Positions 484 to 11,670 of a stretch of DNA of 12,595 nucleotides are shown in pieces. Each line of letters starts with the position of its first letter. The stretch's first letter is position 1. A model generated the notes under the pieces. That model saw nothing but the letters and a program-made list of their open reading frames with translations. It did not search any database and was not told where the DNA came from. Source of the stretch: Patescibacteria group bacterium (GTDB lineage Bacteria > Patescibacteriota > Minisyncoccia > Phycocordibacterales > PALSA-1337); the NCBI GenBank assembly GCA_023487965.1, contig JAMDBV010000052.1, positions 1 to 12,595 on the forward strand. The letters run 5' to 3'. The position numbers were made by a program, and so were the translations under genes.

Positions 484-1005
484 TCAATATGTGGTATCGG
501 CTTCAAGCTGAAGGTTGGCAAATTGCCTCGTCTCCGCATAGACGATGATTACGTACTGAAGGATGCAAACGCCGATCAGTATGGAAATCATCTTTCCAAT
601 AGTTTTTGATACAGGTTTATTGGGGACGGGTTCAGAGTTTGGCCGTTTGAAGAGTTTTGCATAGATAAGGCTGATAATGTAAAAAATCGCGAACCACTCA
701 AGGAAGGCTAGTATTGGACCTGCGATTGAGATCAGCATTCCGTAGATGAAAGCAATTCCAAGATTATTTGTTATTGACGCAAAAAGCATTATCGGATCGC
801 CCCATATCTGAATAGTTCTTATTTTCTCCTCAACCTCCTCGTAGTTTGAATGAACAACGACAGAGTCCGCATTGTCGATCCGAACATGTTCCATTGAGAG
901 CGTCTCGGTAGTTGTCAGGTAGACATCTGCAATCAGCGATATTGAGTAGATAATTGAGAGTACGAAGGCAATATATGTAACTTTTCGAACATACGGGTTA
1001 CTCAT
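484..1005 (-). CDS. four-helix membrane protein of unknown function
   Basis: I do not recognise a family. The 173-residue product has four predicted membrane segments, at about 9-29, 82-100, 101-118 and 138-157. A polar loop of about 50 residues (30-80) lies between the first and second. A lysine/proline-rich loop (119-135) precedes the last helix. The C-terminus is short and polar. No catalytic or ligand motif stands out. The ATG at 1003-1005 is supported by a TATAAT hexamer exactly six bases upstream on the minus strand, which would give a leaderless mRNA; there is no Shine-Dalgarno sequence. The gene is convergent with ddl. A small transporter-like or envelope protein is possible, but the sequence does not show which. 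Confidence 0.75.
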   Translation of the reverse strand: MSNPYVRKVTYIAFVLSIIYSISLIADVYLTTTETLSMEHVRIDNADSVVVHSNYEEVEEKIRTIQIWGDPIMLFASITNNLGIAFIYGMLISIAGPILAFLEWFAIFYIISLIYAKLFKRPNSEPVPNKPVSKTIGKMISILIGVCILQYVIIVYAETRQFANLQLEADTTY

Positions 1006-1011
1006 GTGGTA

Positions 1012-1043
1012 ATTATAATAGATTATATGTATAATTGCACCAA
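1012..1043 (-). promoter_or_regulatory. promoter of the membrane protein at 484-1005
   Basis: On the minus strand TATAAT (1012-1017) lies six bases before the ATG. An overlapping TATTAT (1015-1020) is 17 bases from a TTGGTG -35 candidate (1038-1043). Either register would place the transcription start at or within a few bases of the start codon. Confidence 0.5.
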
Positions 1044-1244
1044 TTTCAGATTAACCGCTCACTTTTTAAAATGATAGGTCAGTATGTGTTAGGTTTGCTA
1101 TAACAAAACTTAATAGTCCGTATGCGATCAGATCAGAAGCGATATGAGTTGGAATTGTCATTTAGTGGTGACCTTATTGCAGTGTGCACAGAATTTATAA
1201 AAAGATAAAGAAGAAATCAGGGACGTATGATTTTGCCCCAAACT

Positions 1245-1754
1245 TTATTCAAATCTCACACTATTTAGTATTGAATCCAGAACATCAAAATCTTTATTCC
1301 GATTTGACTCTGATAACGTCAAACAACTACCTTGATATGAAATAGCATATGTTGCATTAAAACCGGCTGGTGATAAGCCGCTCAAATCAATGTCTTTATA
1401 AACGGTATAACCGTTAACTATGTCCCTAGTAAAAGTCTCCAGCTTATTCGGGGTTGGATTTTCCACAAGTCGTGGTAATGAAGCGCATAAGCTTGAATAA
1501 GTACCAGCGGCTATAAAATTAAATCCCAGTTGTACACCTCCGATTGAATTGGAACCGTACCCCATGCCATATGTGTTCTTCTTAAATGAAAATATCGATG
1601 GGTATGAAAAACTAAACCCACCACCTCGGTCTGTATATTTACTAGTTGAACTATCTATCTTAGAAAAAGAATCAGAACCAAATGAACCCGAAAAATACAT
1701 GATTGTAAGAGTTACCAGTCCTGATACAACTATGATGTATATTGTCCTTTTCAT
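1245..1754 (-). CDS. membrane-anchored PsbP-like protein (predicted)
   Basis: A 169-residue protein with one N-terminal membrane segment (about residues 4-21, after Met-Lys-Arg), then a polar linker and an extracytoplasmic domain. The domain opens with GGGFSFSYPS and ends DSILNSVRF. Openings like FxFxYP and endings like ILxSxxF are typical of PsbP/Mog1-fold small secreted proteins; this assignment is by motif only. Two cysteines in the domain (SLCAS and GSCLT) could form a disulfide. The frame stays open to a TTG at 1793 and an ATG at 1790, against the tRNA-Glu gene. I chose the ATG at 1752-1754 because the longer versions add a polar stretch before the anchor. In addition, an extended -10 (TGaTACACT) lies seven bases upstream of this ATG. 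The function is unknown. Confidence 0.6.
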   Translation of the reverse strand: MKRTIYIIVVSGLVTLTIMYFSGSFGSDSFSKIDSSTSKYTDRGGGFSFSYPSIFSFKKNTYGMGYGSNSIGGVQLGFNFIAAGTYSSLCASLPRLVENPTPNKLETFTRDIVNGYTVYKDIDLSGLSPAGFNATYAISYQGSCLTLSESNRNKDFDVLDSILNSVRFE

Positions 1755-1761
1755 GCAACAA

Positions 1762-1770
1762 AGTGTATCA
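1762..1770 (-). promoter_or_regulatory. extended -10 element for the PsbP-like gene
   Basis: TGaTACACT on the minus strand, with seven bases between the hexamer and the ATG at 1754. The longer string TGTGATACACT (1762-1772) resembles TGTGATATGAT found before two other genes here. No good -35 is seen at 17 bases. Confidence 0.4.
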
Positions 1771-1795
1771 CAAATGTTCTTAACATTCATCAATG

Positions 1796-1870
1796 TGACC
1801 CTACCGGGATTTGAACCCGGGTTTAAGGCTTGAAAAGCCTCCGTCCTGGACCAGGCTAGACGATAGGGCC
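1796..1870 (-). tRNA. tRNA-Glu (anticodon UUC)
   Basis: A complete cloverleaf on the minus strand. The acceptor strands are GGCCCTA and TAGGGTC, with one G-U pair and discriminator A. The D-arm TCGTCTAG...AGGAC is characteristic of glutamate tRNAs. The anticodon stem GAGGC/GCCTT encloses TTTTCAA, giving anticodon UUC (plus-strand 1832-1834). The T-arm is CCGGG TTCAAAT CCCGG. The 3' CCA is not encoded. The 3' end lies close to the PsbP-like gene on the same strand. Confidence 0.96.
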
Positions 1871-1900
1871 GTCTATTATTACATACTCACCACATTCTCG

Positions 1901-1934
1901 ATTCATTGGCAGAGATATGCAATGCCAAATGAAT
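1901..1934. repeat. near-perfect dyad between the divergent tRNA genes
   Basis: ATTCATTGGCA (1901-1911) and TGCCAAATGAAT (1923-1934) are inverted copies with one extra A and an 11-base centre. The dyad sits in the 157-bp gap between tRNA-Glu (minus) and tRNA-Ser (plus), upstream of both. It could be an operator or a cruciform; no function can be read from the sequence. Confidence 0.55.
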
Positions 1935-1953
1935 GAACAAATACTAGCACTTT

Positions 1954-1981
1954 TTGAGAATTTCGCAAAATGTGTTATCGT
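1954..1981 (+). promoter_or_regulatory. promoter of tRNA-Ser
   Basis: TTGAGA (1954-1959), a 16-base spacer and TATCGT (1976-1981). The predicted start near 1988 gives about 40 bases of 5' leader before the tRNA. Read-through could also feed the nuclease gene 25 bases after the tRNA, for which I see no convincing promoter of its own. Confidence 0.45.
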
Positions 1982-1999
1982 TGTGTCACGATCACCCGC

Positions 2000-2014
2000 G
2001 CTCGCTTTGCGAGC
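2000..2014 (+). other. short hairpin in the tRNA-Ser 5' leader
   Basis: GCTCGC TTT GCGAGC is a perfect 6-bp stem with a TTT loop, 13 bases before the tRNA 5' end. There is no T-run, so it is not an intrinsic terminator. It may be a precursor-processing landmark. Confidence 0.5.
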
Positions 2015-2027
2015 TGTGGCGTACCAC

Positions 2028-2114
2028 GGAGAGGTGGCTGAGTGGTCGAAGGCACCGCTCTCGAAAAGCGGCAGGCTCGCAAGGGTCTCGGGAGTTCGAA
2101 TCTCCCCCTCTCCG
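2028..2114 (+). tRNA. tRNA-Ser (anticodon CGA)
   Basis: A class II tRNA with a long variable arm. The acceptor strands are GGAGAGG (2028-2034) and CCTCTCC (2107-2113), with discriminator G. The D-arm is GCTGAGTGGTCGAAGGC. The anticodon stem CCGCT/AGCGG encloses CTCGAAA, giving anticodon CGA (2062-2064), which reads UCG. The T-arm GGGAG TTCGAAT CTCCC is intact. The bases after the discriminator are CCG, so the CCA end is not fully encoded. Confidence 0.96.
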
Positions 2115-2139
2115 CCGTGATTTCCCGACTATATAGATA

Positions 2140-2736
2140 ATGGCCAGATTGTATTTCATGCCCAACCGTCTCACCAAATCAATAATCATGCTTGCCGTAA
2201 TCATAGCCGGTTTTGCTGTCGCCTATGTCATATTTAATAACACAGGTCATGTCCTTATTGGCGAAACACAAAATCAAGCCAGTGTCATCGCAAATACCAA
2301 TAAGACCGATTCAGTCATTGATCCAAAGAAAATATACGAAGTAACCGACATCATCGACGGCGATACATTCAAGGTCATGAATGGGAATAGGGAAGTGACG
2401 GTGCGCATGCTCGGCATCAATACGCCGGAGACGGTCGATCCCCGCAAGGTGCCTGAATGTTATGGCAAGGAAGCTTCAGATGAGACAAAGGAATTGCTAA
2501 AAGGTGGAGAAGTGCGACTTGAGCTCAATCCAAATAGGGAGAAGTATGATATTTACGGCAGAATACTCGCCTATGTGTATTTGCCCAGCGGATTGTTTGT
2601 GAATGAATATTTAGTCCAGAATGGTTATGCGCGTGAGTATACCGTCGGAAGCCCATATGAATATCAAAAGCAATTTCAATACGATCAAAATATAGCAAAA
2701 CGGGCAAGTAAGGGCTTATGGGAAATGTGTAAATAG
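2140..2736 (+). CDS. membrane-anchored staphylococcal-nuclease-like (SNase/TNase) nuclease
   Basis: A predicted extracytoplasmic calcium-dependent nuclease that would cut DNA and RNA. Residues 12-33 form one hydrophobic segment (signal anchor or signal peptide). A polar linker follows, then the SNase domain at about 66-196. Catalytic positions line up with S. aureus nuclease: DGDT (Asp75 = Asp21), VRMLGINTPE (Arg89 = Arg35, Glu97 = Glu43) and YGRILAYVY (Arg141 = Arg87). Position 94 is Asn where the S. aureus enzyme has Asp40. The domain closes with ASKGLWEMC, as is usual. Two starts are possible: ATG 2140, used here, or ATG 2158 (MPNRLTK), which keeps the membrane segment. The gene begins 25 bases after tRNA-Ser and may be read through from it. 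A role in degrading external DNA for nucleotide uptake is inference. Confidence 0.9.
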   Translation: MARLYFMPNRLTKSIIMLAVIIAGFAVAYVIFNNTGHVLIGETQNQASVIANTNKTDSVIDPKKIYEVTDIIDGDTFKVMNGNREVTVRMLGINTPETVDPRKVPECYGKEASDETKELLKGGEVRLELNPNREKYDIYGRILAYVYLPSGLFVNEYLVQNGYAREYTVGSPYEYQKQFQYDQNIAKRASKGLWEMCK

Positions 2737-2737
2737 A

Positions 2738-2765
2738 TTGTTGAATGGCAAAAATGTGATATGAT
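2738..2765 (+). promoter_or_regulatory. promoter of the 44-residue small protein
   Basis: TTGTTG (2738-2743), a 16-base spacer and an extended -10, TGaTATGAT (hexamer 2760-2765). It starts just after the nuclease stop codon. The 11-mer TGTGATATGAT at 2755-2765 recurs exactly in the promoter of the thioredoxin-reductase-like gene. Confidence 0.6.
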
Positions 2766-2775
2766 CTCTAGCTGT

Positions 2776-2910
2776 ATGTACCCTGATTCCATTGCGGTTA
2801 GGGTCATTCGTTCCAGTCCTATAGGTACCAAAGGTACACCAGTGCCGTTGCCCACAGATGAAAGCTCAGGCGGTGACGATGTGTCCTCTGAGGAAAATGA
2901 GAACGAATGA
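2776..2910 (+). CDS. 44-residue acidic small protein (hypothetical)
   Basis: I do not recognise this protein. It begins MYPDSIAVRVIRSSPIG, a basic or neutral strand-like segment. A proline-rich turn (PVPLP, 22-26) follows, then a disordered acidic tail with eight Asp/Glu in the last 17 residues, ending EENENE. It has no membrane segment and no cysteine. Support for a real gene is contextual. A promoter with an extended -10 ends ten bases before the ATG, and an intrinsic terminator begins eight bases after the stop codon, so this ORF is the only content of a short transcription unit. An in-frame ATG at 2761 overlaps the -10 element and is therefore unlikely. The transcript could instead be a small RNA with no translated product. 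The acidic tail suggests a nucleic-acid mimic or binding partner, which is speculation. Confidence 0.5.
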   Translation: MYPDSIAVRVIRSSPIGTKGTPVPLPTDESSGGDDVSSEENENE

Positions 2911-2917
2911 CCAAATC

Positions 2918-2951
2918 GGCTGGCCCACACTACGTGCGCCGGCCTTTTTTT
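2918..2951 (+). terminator. intrinsic terminator after the small protein
   Basis: The stem GGCTGGC (2918-2924) / GCCGGCC (2938-2944) is seven pairs with one G-U. CAC/GTG can pair inside the 13-base loop. A run of seven T follows (2945-2951). The T-run overlaps the stop codon of the convergent flavoprotein gene. Confidence 0.85.
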
Positions 2952-3873
2952 ATTTCGCCTTCAGAAACAAATAAATATCTTCGAGCGCTTTCACAGCATC
3001 GCCCGCCGCTATATTATTCTGGTGATATAGACCGTCTGTACAATCGCCGGCCGCCCAGATACCGGACTGTGAAGTCCTTTGATCGCGAGGGTCAGTGATG
3101 ATATGACCGTACTCATCGATATTAACCAAATCTTTTACAAATGAAGTTGTAGGTATCGAGCCTATTTCCACAAATATGCCCGTAACAGGCAATTCTACAT
3201 CGGTGTTTGAGGTTGTATCAGTGTAGACAAAAGATGAAACGAATTTATCACCTTTGACTTCTTTGGGAACTGCATTCTTTATGATTTTGAAATGGGGATT
3301 TTTCGATACTGCATCTATCGTAGCCGGATCGGCTCGGAATTTGTCACTGCGATTGATAAGAGTCACAGTTTTGCAGTAGGCCAGCAATTGTGCCGCACTG
3401 TCAAAAGCCGCATTTCCGCCACCGACGACAACCACATCCTTTCCGGAATAGAGCGGTCCATCACACGATGCGCAATATGTGAGACCCTTATGTTCTAGTC
3501 GATCAGCCCCCGGAATCTCCAGCTTACGTCTATGACTACCCGATGCCACAAGAATCGTCCGCGCCTCATAAGAATCCTTATCGGTTTTCACGTTAAATCC
3601 AGAATCACTCTTCGCAACATTTATGCACGATTCGCCTTCATGAATGTGAACAAATTCGCCTGCGTATGCCTCTAAATGTTTTTTGAGACTGTTTGCAAAT
3701 TCTAGGCCAGAAATTTTCACCGTACCGATCCAGTTTTCGATGCCTTCAGAGACGGTACTCTGACTATTCCAGTCTTTTGTGATAAATATCGTACGAAGCT
3801 GTTTGCGTGCGGCATAAACGCCCGCCGCTACACCGGCCGGACCGCCACCTATGATTGCAAGATCGTATATCAT
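2950..3873 (-). CDS. trxB: thioredoxin-reductase-like FAD/NAD(P)H oxidoreductase
   Basis: A 307-residue cytoplasmic flavoenzyme that would pass electrons from NAD(P)H through FAD and a redox dithiol to thioredoxin or a similar protein. Domains in order: N-terminal FAD dinucleotide fold with GGGPAG (9-14), a central NAD(P)H fold with GGGNAA (151-156) holding the redox pair just before it (CASC, Cys134/Cys137, in CASCDG), and the C-terminal FAD motif GIWAAGDCTDG (271-281). Length and order match low-molecular-weight TrxB. The NADPH-phosphate motif HRRxxxR is changed to NRSxxxR (174-180), so cofactor preference may differ from E. coli TrxB. No thioredoxin gene is in the window. The ATG is fixed by an extended -10 exactly six bases upstream. 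The gene follows dnaE with a 12-bp gap, but has its own promoter. Confidence 0.88.
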   Translation of the reverse strand: MIYDLAIIGGGPAGVAAGVYAARKQLRTIFITKDWNSQSTVSEGIENWIGTVKISGLEFANSLKKHLEAYAGEFVHIHEGESCINVAKSDSGFNVKTDKDSYEARTILVASGSHRRKLEIPGADRLEHKGLTYCASCDGPLYSGKDVVVVGGGNAAFDSAAQLLAYCKTVTLINRSDKFRADPATIDAVSKNPHFKIIKNAVPKEVKGDKFVSSFVYTDTTSNTDVELPVTGIFVEIGSIPTTSFVKDLVNIDEYGHIITDPRDQRTSQSGIWAAGDCTDGLYHQNNIAAGDAVKALEDIYLFLKAK

Positions 3874-3879
3874 TGCAAT

Positions 3880-3909
3880 ATCATATCACAAAGCTTTCAT
3901 CCGCTCCAA
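3880..3909 (-). promoter_or_regulatory. promoter of the thioredoxin-reductase-like gene
   Basis: Extended -10 TGaTATGAT (hexamer 3880-3885) six bases before the ATG at 3873. A weak -35 TTGGAG (3904-3909) lies 18 bases away, inside the end of dnaE. The TGA stop codon of dnaE (3886-3888) supplies the TGn of the extended -10. It shares the 11-mer TGTGATATGAT (3880-3890) with the promoter at 2755-2765. Confidence 0.6.
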
Positions 3910-6900
3910 GATGAAGCTCTTCTCACCGTTTCTCGTATTGACCGTGACTTTAACTGCGAGACATTGATCAACTTGTATCAATGATTTGAATTCACGATAC
4001 ACGCGCGGAAAAGCGACCGCTTCCGCTTCGCCACTAAAGTCCGCAATCGTGACAAATGCCATTGTTTCATTATTTTTGGTCTGTATGAGTCTGACCTCAT
4101 TTATGATAATGCCGAGAATGGCGGACTCGCCGTCCTTCATGCCTTCAAGAGTTCTTTTGATATCGGTATCGCGTTTCTCAATGATTGAGCGGTAGCGGTC
4201 GAGAGGATGACCGGAAATATACAAGCCGAGTAATTCTCTTTCCCAAGCGAGTCGATCACGCAATTCGGCATTTGGCGCCGGAGCGAGCGACAGAGCGGGT
4301 ACGGTCGAATGATCACTCATAAGGCCGAACAGAGAATCTTGATTCTGATCCTTGGAACTGCTTTCCTTATTGTATTCAAGCAAAAGCTCAATGTTTGCCA
4401 GCATAATTCCTCTATCGACGCCGAAGCAATCCATGGCGCCGGATTTGATTAGCGATTCCAAAGATTTTCGGTTCAGATTTCGATCCTTGACGCGCTCCAG
4501 GAAATCAGCGAGCGAACGATACTTGCCACCACGCTTGCGTTCGTCGATAATCGCCGTCGATATTCCTTGACCGAAGTTTTTGATAGTCACAAGTCCGAAA
4601 CGTATGCGGTGTTTCGGTCGTGCCCGAATGTTTGAATCGGCCGCGGCATTGTCCTTTGAACCCATGATCGGCATCGGAAACGAATTGTCAGAATCGGCCG
4701 CAAATGCATCATCCGAACCCACGATCGGCGCCGGCGTAATGACAGAAGACACGCCAACACCGTCTTTTCTCGGCGGGGAGTCCATCGTAAAATATGGCGT
4801 AGTGCCCCCCGCCTCCGAAGAGGGTTCGGATGATGCATTTGCGGCCGATTCCGGTACTTCACCAATCATGTCAGTATCTTTTACAACTGTGAATTGACTG
4901 AAACTCTCATTGACATCAGGCGCCAATACCGGAATGCCGAGACGTTTGCACTCGGCGATTGTTTCGGCGACCTTTTCTGTTTCGCCGGATTCTGAGGAAA
5001 GCACCGCCGATAGATAAATTTCCGGGAAATGCGCTTTGAGGTATGCCGTGAGGTATGCCACCCAACCGTAGGAAACGGAATGCGCCTTGTTGAATGCGTA
5101 TGCCGCGAACGGTTCGATCCATGACCAGACCTGATTGGCTTTTTTCTCTGACCAACCGCTATTTTCGACACAGCCGTGAATAAAATGATCCTTCTGTTTT
5201 GCCATTTCTTCCGGGATTTTCTTGCCGACCGCCTTGCGGAATTTGTCCACTTCCGCCCATGTGTAGCCGGCGAGATCGTGAGCCATGATAAGGAGATCGT
5301 CCTGATAGACCAGAATGCCGTAAGTCTTTTGCAGTATGCGCTCAAGAGATGGGTCAAGATACTTGATGAGCTTCGGATCGTGTTTGCGCGCAATATAGTC
5401 CGGAATGAATTGTATCGGTCCGGGGCGGTATAGGGCGACCATGGCATTGATATCGTTGATCGATGAAGGTCGCAGATCCTTCAGGAATCTAGTCATGCCA
5501 TCGCCGTTCAGTTGGAAAAGATCGGCCGTCTCGCCTCGCGTCAACATTTCAAATGTCTGTTTGTCATCGGTCGGTATTTTGTCGATCTCCAGATGCACAT
5601 TGTCGATCTTCTTTATCCTGTCAATCGCGTCCGAAATTATCGTCAGGTTTTTGAGTCCGAGAAAGTCAAATTTGAGAAGTCCGGCCTCCTCGATCGAATA
5701 CATATCATATTGCGTTATGACCTTGCCTTCACCTTTCGGATCGAACTGGAGCGGTGTAAAGCCGACGATATCCGAAGGTGCCATGACAACGCCGGCGGCA
5801 TGAACGCCGATATGTCGCGCGCAACCCTCGATCTTCTTTGCCATATCGATTATCCTCTTTGCGTCGGCGTCGCTTGCATATAATTCCCGCAATTCGGTAA
5901 CATCCTCAAACGCCTTTTCGATCGTCATTGGAAATCCTTGGGAACCCATTGGTATCAGTTTCGCGATCCGGTCACCGACGTCAAAAGTGAATCCCATAGC
6001 GCGCGCAACATCACGTACTGATCCTCGAGCCATCATTGTGCCGAACGTACCGATCTGGGCGACTCGGTCTCGGCCATATTTGCGCCTGGCGTATTCGATG
6101 ACTTCGTCGCGACGATTGTCGGCATAGTCCATGTCGATATCGGGCGCCGACGGTCTGTCCGGATTGAGGAAGCGCTCGAACGGTATTTCAAATTCGATCG
6201 GATTGACGTTTGTGATGCCGGACAGATACGTTACCAATGAACCGGAAACCGAACCTCTGATATTGCTCAATATGCCGTTTTCTCGTGCGAAGCGGAGCAG
6301 GTCGGCGACGACCAAGAAGTATGGCGCATAACCTTTGGTTTTTATGACACCCAATTCGTATTCGGCGCGCGATAACATTTCCCGGCTCTGTGGCACATTC
6401 CGGCGTGCAAAACCGTTGAATACAAGGTGCCGTAATTCATCATCGTACGAACGACCGCTCTCCACCTTGTAGTCCGGAAATACCCATTTGCCCAGTTCTA
6501 TATTGAGATTGCACATATCGGCGACTTTCTCGGTATTTTCCAAAGCATCGGGCATGTCCCCGAATAATTCCTCGGCCCTTTGGCTCGAGATAAATGAGAA
6601 GTCGCTTTCATCGTCATCGGATATTCGGTCAGATGCGTCCGAATGTGAATTGACTAGAAGCAATGTATCGCGAGCTTGTCTGTCATCGGGCGTGAGATAG
6701 TAGACATCGTGTCCGGCGACCGTCGGTATATGATTTTTTTTGGCGAATCCGGCAAGCGTTTTCATATTGGCTTCATGGCCGTCTATTTCCGGATGTCTGG
6801 TTATTTCGATGAAAAATCGATCATCAAATATGTCGCGATAATAATCGGCGAATTCATTGGCGCGGTCCTGTGTGCGACCTTTGAGCGAAAGGGCGATGTC

Positions 6901-7323
6901 GCCGGAGAATGACGGTGAGATGGCGATAAGTCCCTCATTGTATTTTTCGATAATTTCGCGATCAATTCTCGGCTTATAATAAAATCCTTCAAGGTTTGAA
7001 TCAGTCACCAAGCGCATGAGATTTTTGTAGCCGATTTCATTCTGGGCCAGAAGGACGAGACGGGACCGACGATTGTCGATACCGGCATCTTTGTCCTTGC
7101 GTGTGCGCGAGGCCACATAAAAATCGACGCCGATGATCGGTTTGATCTCTTTCTTTTTGCACTCTTTGTAAAACTCGATGGCTCCGTAGAGATTGCCGTT
7201 GTCGGTTAACGCCAATGCGTTCATACCTTTTTCCTTAGCCGTATTTACTAGCATGTCGATCTTGGGTAGGGCATTCAGGAGAGAATAATGTGAATGCGTA
7301 TGAAGGTGAGTAAAACGGGACAT
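3886..7323 (-). CDS. dnaE: DNA polymerase III subunit alpha (replicative polymerase)
   Basis: The C-family catalytic subunit of the chromosomal replicase, 1145 residues from the start used here. A PHP domain opens the protein (HTHSH, 8-12). The polymerase core has PDIDMDY (Asp395, Asp397) and KFDFLGL (Asp553), the catalytic aspartates. A helix-hairpin-helix region follows, then the clamp-binding motif QDSLF (995-999) and an OB fold (about 1064-1142). The chain ends right after the OB fold, without the further C-terminal tau-binding domain of E. coli DnaE. The PHP metal site looks degenerate: TDN (40-42) and GVD (65-67), where active PHP domains have TDH and GxE. A low-complexity insertion at about 815-904 interrupts the conserved DVNxS...IRFGL region and carries the inverted repeat listed separately. 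ATG 7321-7323 is chosen because a TATACT hexamer lies six bases upstream; the frame continues to an ATG at 7392. Confidence 0.97.
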   Translation of the reverse strand: MSRFTHLHTHSHYSLLNALPKIDMLVNTAKEKGMNALALTDNGNLYGAIEFYKECKKKEIKPIIGVDFYVASRTRKDKDAGIDNRRSRLVLLAQNEIGYKNLMRLVTDSNLEGFYYKPRIDREIIEKYNEGLIAISPSFSGDIALSLKGRTQDRANEFADYYRDIFDDRFFIEITRHPEIDGHEANMKTLAGFAKKNHIPTVAGHDVYYLTPDDRQARDTLLLVNSHSDASDRISDDDESDFSFISSQRAEELFGDMPDALENTEKVADMCNLNIELGKWVFPDYKVESGRSYDDELRHLVFNGFARRNVPQSREMLSRAEYELGVIKTKGYAPYFLVVADLLRFARENGILSNIRGSVSGSLVTYLSGITNVNPIEFEIPFERFLNPDRPSAPDIDMDYADNRRDEVIEYARRKYGRDRVAQIGTFGTMMARGSVRDVARAMGFTFDVGDRIAKLIPMGSQGFPMTIEKAFEDVTELRELYASDADAKRIIDMAKKIEGCARHIGVHAAGVVMAPSDIVGFTPLQFDPKGEGKVITQYDMYSIEEAGLLKFDFLGLKNLTIISDAIDRIKKIDNVHLEIDKIPTDDKQTFEMLTRGETADLFQLNGDGMTRFLKDLRPSSINDINAMVALYRPGPIQFIPDYIARKHDPKLIKYLDPSLERILQKTYGILVYQDDLLIMAHDLAGYTWAEVDKFRKAVGKKIPEEMAKQKDHFIHGCVENSGWSEKKANQVWSWIEPFAAYAFNKAHSVSYGWVAYLTAYLKAHFPEIYLSAVLSSESGETEKVAETIAECKRLGIPVLAPDVNESFSQFTVVKDTDMIGEVPESAANASSEPSSEAGGTTPYFTMDSPPRKDGVGVSSVITPAPIVGSDDAFAADSDNSFPMPIMGSKDNAAADSNIRARPKHRIRFGLVTIKNFGQGISTAIIDERKRGGKYRSLADFLERVKDRNLNRKSLESLIKSGAMDCFGVDRGIMLANIELLLEYNKESSSKDQNQDSLFGLMSDHSTVPALSLAPAPNAELRDRLAWERELLGLYISGHPLDRYRSIIEKRDTDIKRTLEGMKDGESAILGIIINEVRLIQTKNNETMAFVTIADFSGEAEAVAFPRVYREFKSLIQVDQCLAVKVTVNTRNGEKSFILERMKAL
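4634..4734 (-). repeat. imperfect tandem repeat in the dnaE insertion (57-bp period, two copies)
   Basis: Two copies begin at 4634 and 4691 on the plus strand. Each opens with GAATCGGCCGC and ends near GAACCCAYGATCGG, while the core between has diverged. The 57-base offset is 19 codons. The protein therefore repeats PAPIVGSDDAFAADS and PMPIMGSKDNAAADS in frame. Confidence 0.8.
4691..4851. repeat. perfect 30-bp inverted repeat inside dnaE
   Basis: Bases 4691-4720 are the exact reverse complement of 4822-4851, with a 101-base centre. The left arm begins GAATCGGCCGCAAATGC; the right arm ends GCATTTGCGGCCGATTC. Both arms are translated in the dnaE frame, giving ESAANASSEP from one and GSDDAFAADS from the other. 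The arms lie in the low-complexity insertion, not in a conserved domain. The dnaE mRNA could form a long hairpin here. Confidence 0.92.
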
Positions 7324-7329
7324 GGTTAG

Positions 7330-7359
7330 AGTATAGGGTATTTGTTTCTGTAGTGCCAT
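7330..7359 (-). promoter_or_regulatory. promoter of dnaE
   Basis: TATACT (7330-7335) six bases before the ATG at 7323, with a -35 candidate ATGGCA (7354-7359) 18 bases further. There is no Shine-Dalgarno sequence, so the mRNA is predicted to be leaderless. Confidence 0.55.
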
Positions 7360-7401
7360 AGTCATAGAATGTAATGACGTGCTCATATCCACATATGGGG
7401 T

Positions 7402-7430
7402 TTGACAATATCGACAATATCTGAAATGAT
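7402..7430 (+). promoter_or_regulatory. promoter with tandem GACAATATC repeats
   Basis: A consensus -35 TTGACA (7402-7407), a 17-base spacer and AATGAT (7425-7430). Two back-to-back copies of GACAATATC (7404-7412, 7413-7421) cover the -35 and most of the spacer, as an operator might. The predicted start near 7437 is only about eight bases before the hairpin at 7445. Confidence 0.5.
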
Positions 7431-7444
7431 ATCAATACAAATCG

Positions 7445-7478
7445 CTCGCGCCACCTATGGTGTGTGCGAGTTTTGTTT
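7445..7478 (+). terminator. intrinsic terminator or attenuator upstream of the NYN gene
   Basis: CTCGCGC-CACC (7445-7455), loop TAT, GGTG-t-GTGCGAG (7459-7470), then TTTTGTTT. This is eleven pairs with one bulged T and one G-U. It lies 29 bases before the NYN start codon and after a TTGACA promoter. It either attenuates transcription into the NYN gene or ends a short RNA of about 45 bases. Confidence 0.7.
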
Positions 7479-7499
7479 ATGTGTCCATTTTGCTATTAT
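7471..7499 (+). promoter_or_regulatory. promoter of the NYN-domain gene
   Basis: Extended -10 TGcTATTAT (hexamer 7494-7499) with seven bases to the ATG at 7507. The -35 is weak, within TTTTGTTT (7471-7478), and is shared with the T-run of the preceding hairpin. A leaderless mRNA is predicted. Confidence 0.5.
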
Positions 7500-7506
7500 T
7501 CCGAGC

Positions 7507-8175
7507 ATGACGAATAAACGTATTGCTATATTTGTAGACGGTGGCAATTTGTACCACATTGCATTAAAGAAGATTGGTGTTACCGAGCTCGATTTTGACT
7601 TTGATAACTTTGTAGACTTTCTTGCCAATGGTAGGACCATTGAAAGAGAGTACAAGCGATATTATGTGGGAACCGTTCGCGAAAGAGATGGCGATCCTAG
7701 ATCGAAATATCTCATGTCCCGTCAGACGAAATTGTTCGCTTCTCTCAAAAAACATCAATGGAAACTGCGAACAAGTAAGCTGAAGGTTCGGACGGAAACT
7801 GTGGCGGTTGACGAGCGTATGGTTGAATACCAGAAGATACTTGACCTCGGAATAACAGAGATTTCCTATGAGCGCAGACGAGAGAAGGGTGTAGATGTTA
7901 TGATCGCTACCGACTTGATTGTAGGAGCGGTTGAGAATAGATACGATACTGCGCTAGTGATCAGTTCGGATGCGGATCTTCTGCCGGCAATACAATGGGT
8001 TCGCCAGAATGGGAAATTGCAGGTTGAATATGTAGGATTTTCCATCGATGATGAAAATATTCCGGGCAACAGTATAAGGCCACTATATTCAATGTTTTCA
8101 AACAGTGATTCGCAGAGAGTAATTACTGGAAATACATTGAGAATGTTCATAAATGACAATGCGAATAGTCGGTAA
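7507..8175 (+). CDS. NYN-domain (LabA/DUF88-like) predicted ribonuclease
   Basis: A 222-residue PIN-like nuclease of the NYN family, whose studied members act on RNA. The acidic metal-binding set is visible: FVDGGNLY (Asp11, Asn14), KGVDVMIATD (Asp130, Asp135) and VISSDADL (Asp155, Asp157). The middle (about 40-110) is rich in Lys and Arg, fitting nucleic-acid contact. The C-terminal 40 residues show no known domain. I chose ATG 7507 because the domain begins a few residues later and an extended -10 ends seven bases before it; the frame is open upstream to 7402 without useful content. Its 3' end overlaps rnhB by 23 bases, so the two are probably co-transcribed and translationally coupled. That pairs an RNA-acting nuclease with RNase HII. 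The actual substrate is unknown. Confidence 0.87.
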   Translation: MTNKRIAIFVDGGNLYHIALKKIGVTELDFDFDNFVDFLANGRTIEREYKRYYVGTVRERDGDPRSKYLMSRQTKLFASLKKHQWKLRTSKLKVRTETVAVDERMVEYQKILDLGITEISYERRREKGVDVMIATDLIVGAVENRYDTALVISSDADLLPAIQWVRQNGKLQVEYVGFSIDDENIPGNSIRPLYSMFSNSDSQRVITGNTLRMFINDNANSR

Positions 8176-8755
8176 TAAAACCCTGATAGGTATCGACGAA
8201 TCCGGCCGCGGGCCGATAGCGGGTCCGGTGGCAGTCGGGGTCTTTGTGGTATTCAATGAAAAATGGATGGTGAAATTCCGAGGAGTAAAGGAATCGAAAC
8301 AACTGAGCCGGAAAAGTAGGGAAGTGTGGTACGAGAAGATTCTGAAATTTAGGCAAGAAAATGTATGTGATTTTGCCGTGAATATGATGCCGGCCGAACA
8401 TATCGATAAATACGGCATATCGAAATGCGTTCAGAGGGGGATCGACCGCGGTTTGCGGCAACTTGCCAAAAGGGATTCGATTACAGCCGAATCGCGCATA
8501 TTACTGGACGGATTATTGCGTGCTCCGGAAAATTACAAATATCAAAAGACAATAATCGGCGGAGATCGCAAAGAAAAGGTGATCGCGCTCGCATCAATAT
8601 GCGCCAAAGTCGCGCGCGACAGATTCATGTTGAAAATGAATGATAGATTTCCACAATACGGCTTCGATAAACACAAAGGTTATGGGACAAAGGTCCATTA
8701 TGCCGCTATAGCAATTCACGGCCCATCGAAACTCCACCGCTTGACTTTTCTCTAG
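8153..8755 (+). CDS. rnhB: ribonuclease HII
   Basis: Cytoplasmic endonuclease that cuts the RNA strand of RNA-DNA hybrids and removes ribonucleotides left in DNA. The 200-residue product carries the family motifs: GIDESGRGPIAGPV (Asp15, Glu16), ESKQLS (near DSKxL), LLDG (Asp119), IIGGD (Asp137), ASICAKVARDR (147-157) and the C-terminal HKGYGT...H...GPSKLHRLTF. The four carboxylates of the DEDD site are all present. Length is normal. ATG 8153 and ATG 8159 are both possible; neither has a strong Shine-Dalgarno site. The start lies within the end of the NYN gene, which suggests coupling. The promoter of the next gene begins inside its last codons. Confidence 0.95.
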   Translation: MTMRIVGNKTLIGIDESGRGPIAGPVAVGVFVVFNEKWMVKFRGVKESKQLSRKSREVWYEKILKFRQENVCDFAVNMMPAEHIDKYGISKCVQRGIDRGLRQLAKRDSITAESRILLDGLLRAPENYKYQKTIIGGDRKEKVIALASICAKVARDRFMLKMNDRFPQYGFDKHKGYGTKVHYAAIAIHGPSKLHRLTFL

Positions 8756-8769
8756 GCATAATATATAAT
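8741..8769 (+). promoter_or_regulatory. strong promoter of the PKD surface protein
   Basis: TTGACT (8741-8746), a 17-base spacer and TATAAT (8764-8769). The hexamer ends nine bases before the ATG at 8779, so any leader would be only two or three bases. The -35 overlaps the last codons and stop of rnhB. Confidence 0.82.
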
Positions 8770-8778
8770 AGTGATGCT

Positions 8779-10083
8779 ATGACAAAATATTTTGCCAACA
8801 AATTCTGGGCCAAAAGTGCCGCAACTATCGGTGTTTTTGCCTTTATATTTGCTCTAATCCCAAGCATGGCGGGTGCGTATTACAATTACGGCTCTCACTA
8901 TGTTCCATTGCCTTTTAGCAATTCATACAATTATCCTACATATACGCCACAACCTGTGCCGGTGTATTATCCGACTTACTATCCATCACCGGTCTACTAT
9001 CCGACATATCCGGCTATCACCGTATCGTGTAGTCCGAATCGCACGTCTATAAATACGGGTGATTATGTTACATGGAGCGCATATGCTTCAGGTGGCAACG
9101 GATTGTATTCATATTCGTGGTCGGGAACGGATTCTCTTTATGGCAGTAATTCTTCGATTTCCAAGAATTATTACAGTTTGGGCATGAAGTATGCCAGTGT
9201 TACCGTATATTCGAATGGTCAATCGGTAACTCAAAACTGCGGCAATATCAATGTATATCAGCCGACATATTCCTATTCCAGTCCGGTATATTATTACAAT
9301 ACGCCCTACCAGAATCTCAGCGTATCGTGTATCGCAAATACGAATTACGCCAATACCAATTCACCGGTAACCTGGACAGCTTCGGCCAATGGCGGCAATG
9401 GCTACTATACCTATTCATGGTCGGGCAGTGACGGTCTATACGGCAACGGTCAATCGGTTTCGACGACATATAGTTCGATCGGAAATAAAATGGCGAGTGT
9501 GACCGTCAATTCCGCCGGTCAGACTGTTACGCAATCTTGCGGCAATACTATCGCTATAGGCAATACATACAATTATGCTCTCGCAAGCAATTCCGGTACC
9601 TTGGATGTGGGCTGTTATTCTGATCCTGCGAACATAAATACGAACCAGCCAGTTACCTGGAATGTCGAAGTCTCCGGCGGTTCCGAACCGTACAAATATT
9701 CATGGACTGGTTCTGACGGTCTTATAGGCACACAGGCTTCGATAATCAAATATTATTCCAAGGCCGGCGAGAAGAACGCCATAGTGACAGTTACTTCCGC
9801 GGATGGTAAAACCACTACGCGCGCGTGCAGCAATACGCTGGCGGTAGCGAATCCGAGTACTTACGCCAAGGCGAAGACAACTACGACGGTTGCGTCAAAC
9901 ACTACAAAAGCGTCAGTAAACACAGATACTAGTACTACAAATGCAAAGGCGGCCAGTGCCGAGAATTCCGCCGCCGCTCTCTTCTCGCTCGCCAATGTTC
10001 CGTGGGGTTGGGTTGCCATTCTTGTGATACTTGTACTATTCGCTACAGTCTTGTATCTGCTGTTCAATGCGAAAAAGATCTAG
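8779..10083 (+). CDS. secreted surface protein with three PKD-like repeats and a C-terminal membrane anchor
   Basis: A 434-residue extracytoplasmic protein. A signal peptide spans residues 1-33, with likely cleavage after SMAGA. A Tyr/Pro-rich stretch follows (about 34-78; PVYYPTYYPSPVYYPTYP). Three PKD-like Ig-fold repeats lie at about 80-160, 180-258 and 275-356, each with VTW, SxSWSGxDxL or close variants, and AxVTV. Each repeat has one cysteine pair (84/154, 184/254, 279/350), and these are the only six cysteines, suggesting one disulfide per repeat. A Thr/Ala/Ser linker (358-400) leads to one membrane helix (about 408-429) and a short tail ending AKKI. There is no LPxTG motif. The consensus promoter suggests high expression. 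A role in cell-surface structure or host attachment is inference. Confidence 0.88.
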   Translation: MTKYFANKFWAKSAATIGVFAFIFALIPSMAGAYYNYGSHYVPLPFSNSYNYPTYTPQPVPVYYPTYYPSPVYYPTYPAITVSCSPNRTSINTGDYVTWSAYASGGNGLYSYSWSGTDSLYGSNSSISKNYYSLGMKYASVTVYSNGQSVTQNCGNINVYQPTYSYSSPVYYYNTPYQNLSVSCIANTNYANTNSPVTWTASANGGNGYYTYSWSGSDGLYGNGQSVSTTYSSIGNKMASVTVNSAGQTVTQSCGNTIAIGNTYNYALASNSGTLDVGCYSDPANINTNQPVTWNVEVSGGSEPYKYSWTGSDGLIGTQASIIKYYSKAGEKNAIVTVTSADGKTTTRACSNTLAVANPSTYAKAKTTTTVASNTTKASVNTDTSTTNAKAASAENSAAALFSLANVPWGWVAILVILVLFATVLYLLFNAKKI

Positions 10084-10107
10084 CAATCGGAAGATGAACA
10101 TCATACG

Positions 10108-10140
10108 CCACGATCCTAGGCCTGCGGCTGGGGATCGTGG
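10108..10140 (+). other. hairpin after the PKD gene
   Basis: CCACGATCC (10108-10116) and GGATCGTGG (10132-10140) form a perfect nine-pair stem, with GCC/GGC able to pair inside the 15-base loop. No T-run follows, so it may be an mRNA 3' end or stability structure, not a classic terminator. Confidence 0.6.
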
Positions 10141-10191
10141 TATAATCGGAATGATACATTATTGTACGTGTTTACACGGGTATCTCACGTC

Positions 10192-10220
10192 TTGACTTAT
10201 TACTAACATCATGCTATAAA
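10192..10220 (+). promoter_or_regulatory. promoter of the two-gene cassette
   Basis: TTGACT (10192-10197), a 17-base spacer and extended -10 TGcTATAAA (hexamer 10215-10220). The hexamer is eight bases before the ATG at 10229, so the leader is at most one or two bases. Confidence 0.82.
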
Positions 10221-10228
10221 CATACAAG

Positions 10229-10657
10229 ATGCTTTTTTCAACTGAAAGCGGACCTGGTACGCTCACCGAACGGGTCGAAAGGTCAGAGCGTCGTAATCCA
10301 TACATAACCCTCTCAGAGTTGACGAAACTCTGTCAGGGTAATGAAACGCTCCAGGAATGCCTGGATGATTTGGTAACGGCGTCACTTCAATATGCCGAGT
10401 CGGTAATGAGGCTCGGTAGGATTGCGGCAGCTGGTAGCACATCGATCGATGACGGTTTACGGTATGAAGCCGAGGACCTTCGTGGTCGCGCGCATGACGC
10501 ATCGATCTCGTCGGTGAATATTTTGGGCCGGCAATTAAAGCTTGCTGGTTGCAACACTAACTGGCTTAAGGAAGTTGCGCAACAAGGAAGACCGGGCTAC
10601 ACTCGGTTTCTCTTACTTATAGCGTTCGAAACGGAACGGGAGGAAAACCATGGATAA
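10229..10657 (+). CDS. 142-residue hypothetical protein, first gene of a two-gene cassette
   Basis: I do not recognise a family. The product is soluble, with no signal peptide or membrane segment. It appears mostly helical: an N-terminal charged stretch (TERVERSERR), then amphipathic segments LSELTKLCQ, LQECLDDLVTASLQYAESVMRLGRI and YEAEDLRGRAHDASISSVNILGRQLKLAG. Two cysteines (35, 44) lie close together and a third at about 108. No catalytic motif is visible. The start is set by a consensus promoter ending eight bases before ATG 10229. The last eight bases overlap the start of the next gene, and the pair ends at a strong terminator, so the two make a self-contained unit. A toxin-antitoxin or regulatory pair is possible, but nothing in the sequence identifies one. 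Confidence 0.68.
   Translation: MLFSTESGPGTLTERVERSERRNPYITLSELTKLCQGNETLQECLDDLVTASLQYAESVMRLGRIAAAGSTSIDDGLRYEAEDLRGRAHDASISSVNILGRQLKLAGCNTNWLKEVAQQGRPGYTRFLLLIAFETEREENHG
10638..10643 (+). promoter_or_regulatory. strong Shine-Dalgarno site for the 56-residue gene
   Basis: GGGAGG six bases before the ATG at 10650, inside the end of the upstream cistron. It is the only clear Shine-Dalgarno sequence I found in the window, and it serves an internal cistron that cannot be leaderless. Confidence 0.8.
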
Positions 10658-10820
10658 TCAGACCAAGAAGTCCATATTACGCTACGCTGAAATAGCGTTT
10701 CGTCGTGCGCGTGGCGTGGCGACAAATGAGGAGGTTGAGGAGGCTAATGAACTTCGCGTAAAGCTCAAAATGTCCCACGACGAGATTATGAGCCTTGCGG
10801 CGCTCATCGCCTTACCCTGA
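10650..10820 (+). CDS. 56-residue hypothetical protein, second gene of the cassette
   Basis: A small soluble protein without a recognised family. It opens MDNQTKKSILRYAEIAFRR, a basic amphipathic helix. The middle NEEVEEANELRVKLKMS looks like a second, acidic-then-basic helix and DEIMSLAALIALP a third, hydrophobic one. A three-helix bundle or a partner-binding protein would fit. It overlaps the upstream gene by eight bases and has the strongest ribosome-binding site of the window, so coupled and efficient translation is likely. The stop codon lies seven bases before the terminator hairpin. The basic N-terminus could bind nucleic acid or the more acidic upstream product, which is speculation. 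Confidence 0.66.
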   Translation: MDNQTKKSILRYAEIAFRRARGVATNEEVEEANELRVKLKMSHDEIMSLAALIALP

Positions 10821-10827
10821 TCCAGTG

Positions 10828-10880
10828 ACGGCACCGTGATCACAGCCACATGCTGTGCTCGCGGTGCCGTTTCTTGTTAT
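10828..10880 (+). terminator. intrinsic terminator of the two-gene cassette
   Basis: A perfect nine-pair outer stem, ACGGCACCG (10828-10836) / CGGTGCCGT (10862-10870). Inside it is a six-pair stem CACAGC (10841-10846) / GCTGTG (10852-10857). The tail TTTCTTGTTAT follows. It also separates the cassette from the convergent Nudix gene. Confidence 0.85.
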
Positions 10881-11357
10881 TCAATCTGCGACTATTCCAA
10901 GCTCTGTGAAAAATTCGAGCATTACAGGTTCCATGCCGGGATTTTGTTGCCAATCTTCCTCCGATATTTGTTTATTCAAATATTTTAGGGTGCGATCGGC
11001 AAGGGGTAATATTTGCTCTTTTGTATACCAACCGCCACTTCTGGTCTCATCATTACTCAATTTGATCATTCCGGAAACATCGGCTTTGAATATTTTCCAC
11101 ATATGCCACGTACCACCTTCACGACGACATCCATTCTCCATACGACGTTCAAGAACTAATTCTAGGTGCTCGGCATTCAGGCCAACTTCTTCCGATAATT
11201 CACGTTTTGCGGCGATTTCAAATGTGGCATCTCCATCGACATGGCCGGCGGGAATGGCAAAGCCAAAAGGGAATTTCTTGCGCTCGATAAGTAATATTCT
11301 GTCGTCATTATAGACCAATATTCCTACACTCGTATGATCACATATCTTATTGCTCAT
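10881..11357 (-). CDS. Nudix hydrolase
   Basis: A 158-residue cytoplasmic pyrophosphohydrolase of nucleoside-diphosphate-linked compounds; the exact substrate cannot be read. The Nudix box runs from GHVDGD to RELSEEVGL (residues 38-60): Gly38, Arg52, Glu53, Glu56 and Glu57 fit the consensus GX5EX7REUXEEXGU, but the first glutamate is Ala44. The metal-binding REXXEE core is intact. The strand before it (TSVGILVYNDDRILLIERKK) and AIPAGH are typical. The C-terminus (MEPVMLEFFTELGI) shows no extra domain. The ATG at 11355-11357 is supported by an extended -10 (TGaTATACT) six bases upstream. The gene is divergent from the deoxyribosyltransferase-like pair and shares a symmetric promoter region with it. 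A role in salvage or nucleotide clean-up fits the neighbours, as inference. Confidence 0.9.
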   Translation of the reverse strand: MSNKICDHTSVGILVYNDDRILLIERKKFPFGFAIPAGHVDGDATFEIAAKRELSEEVGLNAEHLELVLERRMENGCRREGGTWHMWKIFKADVSGMIKLSNDETRSGGWYTKEQILPLADRTLKYLNKQISEEDWQQNPGMEPVMLEFFTELGIVAD

Positions 11358-11362
11358 AAATC

Positions 11363-11392
11363 TAGTATATCAGCGCGATGTGTAATATACTA
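11363..11392. promoter_or_regulatory. symmetric divergent promoters
   Basis: TAGTATA (11363-11369) and TATACTA (11386-11392) form an inverted repeat. Read outward, each gives a TATACT -10 exactly six bases before the ATG of its gene, at 11357 (minus) and 11398 (plus). Each -10 also lies 17 bases from the other, in the opposite promoter's -35 position. Confidence 0.6.
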
Positions 11393-11397
11393 CCGAC

Positions 11398-11670
11398 ATG
11401 AAAATATACGTATCTCACGATTATATACGTTCACATTACAAACACATTCTGGAAAGCGACGCTATTCTCATAGTTAATAATGAGAAACATGGTGTGAAAA
11501 ATTATATTGGTGGCAATGTGCTCATGGAAATGGGTATGGCATACGTAAACAACAAAAAGATATTTTTCCTCACTGAAATGCCGACCGAAGCGCCGTACCT
11601 CGATGAAATACATGCGATGCAACCGATATGTCTTCATGGCGACCTAATTAATATTTCAAAAAATATATGA
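11398..11670 (+). CDS. short nucleoside-2-deoxyribosyltransferase-like protein, lacking the N-terminal part
   Basis: A 90-residue protein matching the C-terminal half of the next gene's product. Shared landmarks are DAILIVNNEK, NYIGGNVLMEMGMAY, KKIFFL and HGDLINI. Glu44 in MEMGMAY sits where deoxyribosyltransferase-fold enzymes carry the catalytic glutamate; family assignment is by fold motif only. The N-terminal strand and helix that begin this fold (present as TKTVVICSSASFY in the neighbour) are missing. There is no room for them upstream, since the divergent Nudix gene starts 40 bases away. It still has a promoter with a TATACT six bases before the ATG. It ends in an ATGA overlap with the next gene. 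It is either a truncated duplicate or a partner subunit. Confidence 0.72.
   Translation: MKIYVSHDYIRSHYKHILESDAILIVNNEKHGVKNYIGGNVLMEMGMAYVNNKKIFFLTEMPTEAPYLDEIHAMQPICLHGDLINISKNI

Follow-up and report, generated by a model that had tools for sequence, protein, structure and literature searches.

How does translation begin in a genome whose genes carry promoter elements within a few bases of their start codons? The question is raised by a 12,595-nucleotide stretch of DNA (contig JAMDBV010000052.1; hereafter the window), one contig of a 61-contig, 506,721-base genome recovered as a 74%-complete bin and assigned by its DnaE protein to Paceibacteria-type Patescibacteria. A sequence-only reading of the window had described nine -10 hexamers separated from an ATG by gaps of 6 to 9 bases, and all nine were re-read with the sequences and gaps it gave. 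Present, too, were the TGn triplets said to precede five of them (those of the Nudix, TrxB-like, PsbP-like and NYN genes and of a small gene cassette). Likewise, none of the nine genes (0/9) has a Shine-Dalgarno (SD)-like motif in the 20 bases 5′ of its ATG, and the strong SD ascribed to one internal cistron was recovered as a GGGAGG ahead of a 56-amino acid (aa) frame. The latter, second cistron of the cassette (10192-10878), is the only window gene at which a strong SD was seen. We consider it likely that leaderless initiation from extended -10 elements operates across many transcription units of this genome, and that it does so amid an order-wide loss of the anti-SD sequence from 16S rRNA, with a tail that this genome would share.

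A TANNNT motif lies at exactly gap 6 before 5 of 13 gene starts in the window (P = 1.2e-6, at a background rate of 18.03/1129). Four of the 13 lack a -10 of this kind (RNase HII at 8153, the start at 11667, SNase at 2140/2158 and the 56-aa cistron at 10650), and the hexamer of the 142-aa cassette gene, TATAAA, is no TANNNT. The layout is at its tightest between the divergent Nudix and NDT-like genes, whose ATGs are 40 bases apart. Both TATACT boxes, each at gap 6 to its respective start codon, fall within this interval, where next to no space remains for leaders.

The sequence-only reading had tied its proposal to a fixed distance between motif and start codon across the genome. When this distance was plotted for 196,403 of the 506,721 bases, a sharp peak appeared at gap 6. 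The test dispensed with start calling: every ATG opening at least 100 codons was taken, and the control was the average over gaps 12-40. TATAAT occurs 12 times at gap 6 versus 0.62 times per control gap (13 times if the edge filter is omitted), with counts of 12, 2, 0 and 2 at gaps 6, 7, 8 and 9. The wider motif TA[ATC]A[AC]T gives 30 occurrences at gap 6 versus 1.76. A single fixed pattern, TGNTATAATN6ATG, was run genome-wide and matched 9 times, its reversed form 0 times. Alignment of 28 sites shows T at -17, T at -15 and G at -14 in 17 of 28 sites each, a TnTGn upstream of the hexamer, with no purine preference at -16 and no visible -35 element. Position -1 is a pyrimidine in 24 of the 28 (background, about 60%); this and the A at +1 are consistent with transcription starting at the ATG. 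No gap-6 peak was found in 150 kilobases (kb) of Escherichia coli DNA, and 150 kb of the Deinococcus radiodurans plasmid MP1 gave a TANNNT peak at the same gap (11 versus 2.4).

Relatives of the dnaE locus carry the same signature. From 345 confirmed loci 80 were kept, some named as Taylor-, Nomura-, Kaiser- or Zambryskibacteria, the others as "uncultured bacterium" or "Patescibacteria group". Pooled with our genome, they yield 190 ATGs at gap 6 versus 45, and no comparable rise is seen before GTG, TTG, CTG, ATT or ATA. The dnaE start could be placed from the protein sequence in 75 of the 80 loci. In 34 of these 75 the ATG is preceded at exactly gap 6 by TATACT, TATAAT, TAAACT or a similar hexamer (0.4 expected per gap), and a -10 lies within gaps 6-9 in 47 of 75, compared with 6 of the 75 for the control gaps 20-23; an SD-like tetramer precedes dnaE in only 1 of 75. 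The 27 bases further upstream average 30% identity among relatives, so it is the position of the -10 that is conserved and not the surrounding sequence. A pyrimidine occupies -1 in 31 of 33 cases.

Transcription might instead begin 1-4 bases 5′ of the ATG in many genes, producing very short leaders. We regard this as possible but rather unlikely. Such leaders would fit the four window genes with gaps of 7-9 and the 370 divergent genes of the relatives, where TANNNT is found 101, 39, 32 and 40 times at gaps 6, 7, 8 and 9, versus 12 in the control; however, the peak in our genome stands at 6 alone, and at gaps 7-9 the choice of start site could shift to the A of the ATG.

The second half of the argument concerns the ribosome. 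In the order to which the genome belongs (41 genomes sampled, 31 with a 16S match, 30 16S loci fetched), 21 of 21 readable 16S tails are without the anti-SD core CCTCC. Where the canonical tail has GGATCACCTCCTTT, these have GGAWTAWTTCAA or a similar sequence, directly 3′ of helix 45 with its GGAA loop. Among named dnaE relatives (34 genomes, 24 with a 16S match) the core is missing from 14 of 14 readable tails, including that of L010, nearest by DnaE. Together with two order members from a draw across the phylum, this makes 37 of 37 distinct tails without CCUCC at the usual place. Many of them can form a small hairpin, UUC-AANN-GAA, whose two arms change jointly in five rows (L107, L108, L145, L147 and L236); such apparent covariation hints that the hairpin is under selection. 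The 16S loci L124-L128 of the order span 2.4-2.9 kb and thus bear insertions, a feature already known in the candidate phyla radiation, or CPR (PMC11270868).

The phylum draw comprised 145 genomes (114 with a 16S match, tails taken from 90, 79 readable). Outside the class, CCTCC is kept in 70 of 74 tails. The four exceptions show one-base changes: TCTCC and CTTCC in G106 and G135 (family f67), CCGCC in G046 and CTTCC in G008. Class members of the same draw have it in 0 of 5. In a dedicated draw within the class (55 genomes, 47 with a 16S match, 30 loci, 29 readable tails including the five just mentioned), CCTCC is present in 11 of 29 tails and lost from 18; AACTCC, TTCTCC and ACTTCTT are among the intermediates. 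This mosaic and its intermediates suggest that the anti-SD decays inside the class; no copy was seen in the order. According to PMC12641178, the 16S 3′ terminus is often incompletely annotated in CPR genomes, which would hide such a loss.

Strict SD motifs precede 2 of 268 frames of our genome (5 in the control region), versus 39 of 193 in E. coli (control, 2). For the three genomes G146, G132 and G118 the count is 7 of 330, with 6 in the control. That leaderless initiation is but one of several equal modes, SD pairing being served by an anti-SD that escaped detection, by a mature 3′ end that extends further or by another 16S copy, strikes us as improbable. It would accommodate the AGGAG found at SD spacing before 43 of 1362 non-overlapping open reading frames (ORFs) of at least 70 aa (80 relatives plus our own sample), and it can draw on the draft state of the bins and on two tails with a displaced CCTCC (see below). 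It has to contend, however, with the uniform lack of CCTCC at the usual place, with SD counts in our genome that do not exceed control, and with the SD-led ORFs forming a separate population, enriched in -35 elements, leaders and terminators. Weaker still, and very improbable, is the idea that AT-rich unstructured start regions or S1-type sites merely mimic a -10 upstream of normal leaders: a bias to AT between about -20 and -10, not simply attributable to leaderless promoters, is reported for several phyla (PMC5397173), but composition would give neither a one-base peak nor the TG at -15/-14, would also raise ATT, ATA, GTG and TTG, and would not hold TATACT, TATAAT or TAAACT at one place in otherwise dissimilar dnaE upstream regions.

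In the mechanism we favor, the extended -10 of many transcription units would set RNA polymerase to start at the A of the initiator ATG. The resulting mRNA would be leaderless, its 5′-terminal AUG acting as the ribosome recruitment signal, and would presumably be taken by 70S ribosomes or by 30S ribosomes loaded with initiator tRNA. With the order's 16S tail devoid of an anti-SD, SD pairing would be unavailable; our genome probably shares this tail. Downstream cistrons may rely on coupling or on leaderless starts of their own. Of these steps, the exact gap of 6, the specificity for ATG, the TnTGn, the SD counts not above control and the relatives' anti-SD loss are read from sequence. Among close downstream genes of this genome, TANNNT lies at gap 6 in 7 of 52, and 12 of 52 overlap the preceding gene by 4 bases, which suggests translational coupling. 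No strict SD motif was found before these genes (0/52; control region, 1/52) and no looser one (0/56; control region, 10/56).

How many genes use the layout was estimated with a simple gene caller (185 genes in our sample), in counts that weak boxes and misplaced starts escape. Of 76 first genes, 36 of them divergent and 40 standing 80 bases or more from their same-strand neighbor, 15 have TANNNT at gap 6 versus 2.2 expected, an excess of 17%; for gaps 6-9 the figures are 27 versus 8.8 in control blocks, or 24%. The 370 divergent genes of the relatives, counted per gene, give 24% and 38%, and 72 E. coli genes 1% and -2%. The sequence-only reading had placed the layout before "most first genes" and had suggested leaderless initiation as the "main mode". 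These shares, which lie between 17% and 38%, do not bear out either wording; leaderless initiation itself is well supported by the sharp, ATG-specific gap of 6 and by the relatives' anti-SD loss. Further leaderless genes may have escaped the count through a weak -10 or a misplaced start.

Several results weigh against the combined picture of leaderless initiation and anti-SD loss. The leaderless share, as measured, is below one half. With the broader motif, the -1 pyrimidine in our genome reaches only 75% of 24 sites versus a 60% background, a modest excess. No 16S gene was found in the 74%-complete bin, so anti-SD loss in this genome would be by kinship. Two of the 37 tails, those of L144 (nearest relative by DnaE) and L145, carry a CCTCC 18-21 bases past the usual place, which could pair if the mature 3′ end extended that far. 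Among the 80 relatives, SD motifs do precede a minority of genes (75 of 1603, versus 18 in the control region). An expected difference in SD use with anti-SD state did not materialize within the class, members with an intact anti-SD (21 of 388, 11 genomes) and members without (13 of 306, 11 genomes) being equal in this respect (P 0.6). Finally, the -10-at-6 signal is phylum-wide and includes genomes with CCUCC: across the 145 genomes TATAATN6ATG occurs 3379 times versus 1365 for TATAATN18ATG, being higher in 126 genomes, lower in 16 and tied in 3. The highest TATAATN6ATG count belongs to G109, with 124 versus 14 at gap 18.

The layout is, by these counts, not peculiar to the lineage; what is peculiar is the apparent loss of the anti-SD. 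Since gap 6 prevails throughout the phylum though most tails outside the class keep the anti-SD, and since SD use in the class is equally low in either state, leaderless starts are probably the older trait, the anti-SD having become dispensable afterwards.

Table 1. Promoter elements, start codons and related features in the window (gap, bases between -10 hexamer and ATG).
Feature	Position	Strand	Gene and start codon	Basis or match
-10 TATAAT, gap 6	1012..1017	-	membrane protein gene 484-1005, ATG 1003-1005	read from sequence
-10 TACACT, gap 7, TGn before	1762..1767	-	ATG 1752-1754	read from sequence
-10 TATGAT, gap 6, TGn	3880..3885	-	TrxB-like gene, ATG 3871-3873	Pfam Pyr_redox_2
-10 TATACT, gap 6	7330..7335	-	dnaE, ATG 7321-7323	like hexamer at same position in 34/75 relatives
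-10 TATTAT, gap 7, TGn	7494..7499	+	NYN-domain gene, ATG 7507	Pfam NYN
-10 TATAAT, gap 9	8764..8769	+	PKD gene, ATG 8779	Pfam PKD_4
Cassette promoter, TTGACT (10192-10197), 17-base spacer, TATAAA (10215-10220), gap 8	10192..10220	+	142-aa orphan, ATG 10229	
SD-like GGGAGG	10638..10643	+	56-aa internal cistron, ATG 10650	read from sequence
Strong inverted repeat then T-rich tract, putative cassette terminator	10828..10878	+		read from sequence
-10 TATACT, gap 6, TGn	11364..11369	-	Nudix gene, ATG 11355-11357	Pfam NUDIX
-10 TATACT, gap 6	11386..11391	+	NDT-like gene, ATG 11398	

The 43 SD-led ORFs resemble the window's cassette in several respects, although part of them are likely spurious (for example those in L043 and L066, antisense to dnaE). 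A strong terminator follows within 120 bases in 19 of 43, versus 4 of 132 leaderless genes and 22 of 200 other genes sampled; a -35/-10 promoter with a leader precedes 18 of 43, versus 6 of 132 and 28 of 200. Their G+C content is higher than that of their locus by a median of 0.04 (P 2e-7 versus leaderless genes), and relatives among all fetched loci were found for 5 of 43, versus 100 of 132 leaderless genes. Nine of the 43 sit in five genomes whose tail was read and found lost (L022, L063, L067, L071 and L075), the L022 genome being one of those with the distant CCTCC. By these features, SD-led ORFs seem to form a gene pool of their own, mobile or foreign.

Mostly orphan cassettes of this type are seen in the window and in L055, L045, L032, L034, L051, L057, L067 and others. 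A search of 5.8 billion proteins with the product of the window cassette's first gene (142 aa) returned only itself. The notion that all SD-led genes are orphans proved wrong: two other queries matched only themselves, but the 371-aa protein encoded at L067:18682-19797 has 79 relatives, of which two have a descriptive source (Paceibacterota and Patescibacteria). This protein had no match in Pfam and PADLOC scans; a search for its family on viral contigs gave 8 pattern matches, 0 of them confirmed, and no PADLOC defence family was found among five proteins scanned. Four distinct SD-led cassettes (L051:8264-9286, L057:8320-9282, L062:8002-8703 and L063:8769-9263) precede what seems to be the same gene, starting MVNHMRHT or MVVRMRHT, a pattern suggestive of a preferred insertion site near dnaE. 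Since the resident ribosome would be unable to pair with the SDs of the cassettes, these may be written for, or recently derived from, other cells. We tentatively envisage an order that gave up ribosomal SD recognition, with AUG-first initiation as its native mode and an AU-rich hairpin tail on its 16S rRNA, and that hosts a second, SD-led dialect of cassettes perhaps intended for, or coming from, elsewhere.

Companion translation factors were surveyed in the same samples. A profile search, which may miss divergent copies, found the ribosomal protein bS21 in 10 of the order's 41 genomes, 2 of them over cut-off; for the phylum draw the figures are 118 of 145, with 88 over cut-off. Era, which reads GAUCACCUCC (PMC10582724), exceeds the cut-off in 0 of 41 order genomes, all of which give weaker GTPase matches, and in 10 of 14 control genomes; its loss from most CPR is already published (PMC10582724, PMC12641178). 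Loss of initiation factor 3 as an explanation was ruled out, IF3_C being present in 38 of 41 order genomes (36 over cut-off); none was found in our own 74%-complete bin.

The lineage offers a natural setting for tracing the anti-SD from an intact state through one- or two-base decay to full replacement, amid leaderless genes, and makes testable whether leaderless initiation preceded and freed the anti-SD. On the practical side, gene finders that expect an SD may misplace starts in such genomes. A literature search combining leaderless, SD or anti-SD with Patescibacteria, Parcubacteria, Saccharibacteria or CPR gave, among the matches listed and judged by title, opening of the abstract or the passages available, no report of leaderless genes or anti-SD loss in these bacteria.

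Among known systems, the "TA-led" genes of Deinococcus-Thermus and Actinobacteria (Zheng 2011, PMC3160421) are alike in having a Pribnow box about 10 base-pairs upstream and no SD. The same study describes TAtaaT boxes for groups of medium GC content and, for several genomes of low GC content, TG peaks; the groups it lists with leaderless genes, in the accessible part of the text, include one unclassified genome and no named Patescibacteria. D. radiodurans MP1 differs in its clear SD peak, whereas SD counts in our genome do not exceed control and the relatives' anti-SD is gone. Bacteria without an anti-SD (Amin 2018, PMC6107228) are like the relatives described here in their 13-base tail with no recognizable anti-SD. 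Their genes mostly lack an SD, as do those of our genome and of G146, G132 and G118, whereas in the 80 relatives SD motifs exceed the control. The 128 cases, as far as the accessible text goes, are mostly Bacteroidetes genera, Mycoplasma and Carsonella, with no Patescibacteria named; unlike them, the loss described here spans an order of Patescibacteria and forms a graded mosaic in its class. Bacteroidetes and Flavobacteria share the sparing use of SDs (PMC10783764), but in that system, by the same account, bS21 hides an intact anti-SD, whereas here the anti-SD itself has given way to another sequence, and most genomes of the order show either a weak bS21 match or none. As a mechanism, leaderless initiation would be ordinary in kind; the setting, ribosomes that in the relatives appear to have dispensed with the anti-SD, is where the real difference lies.

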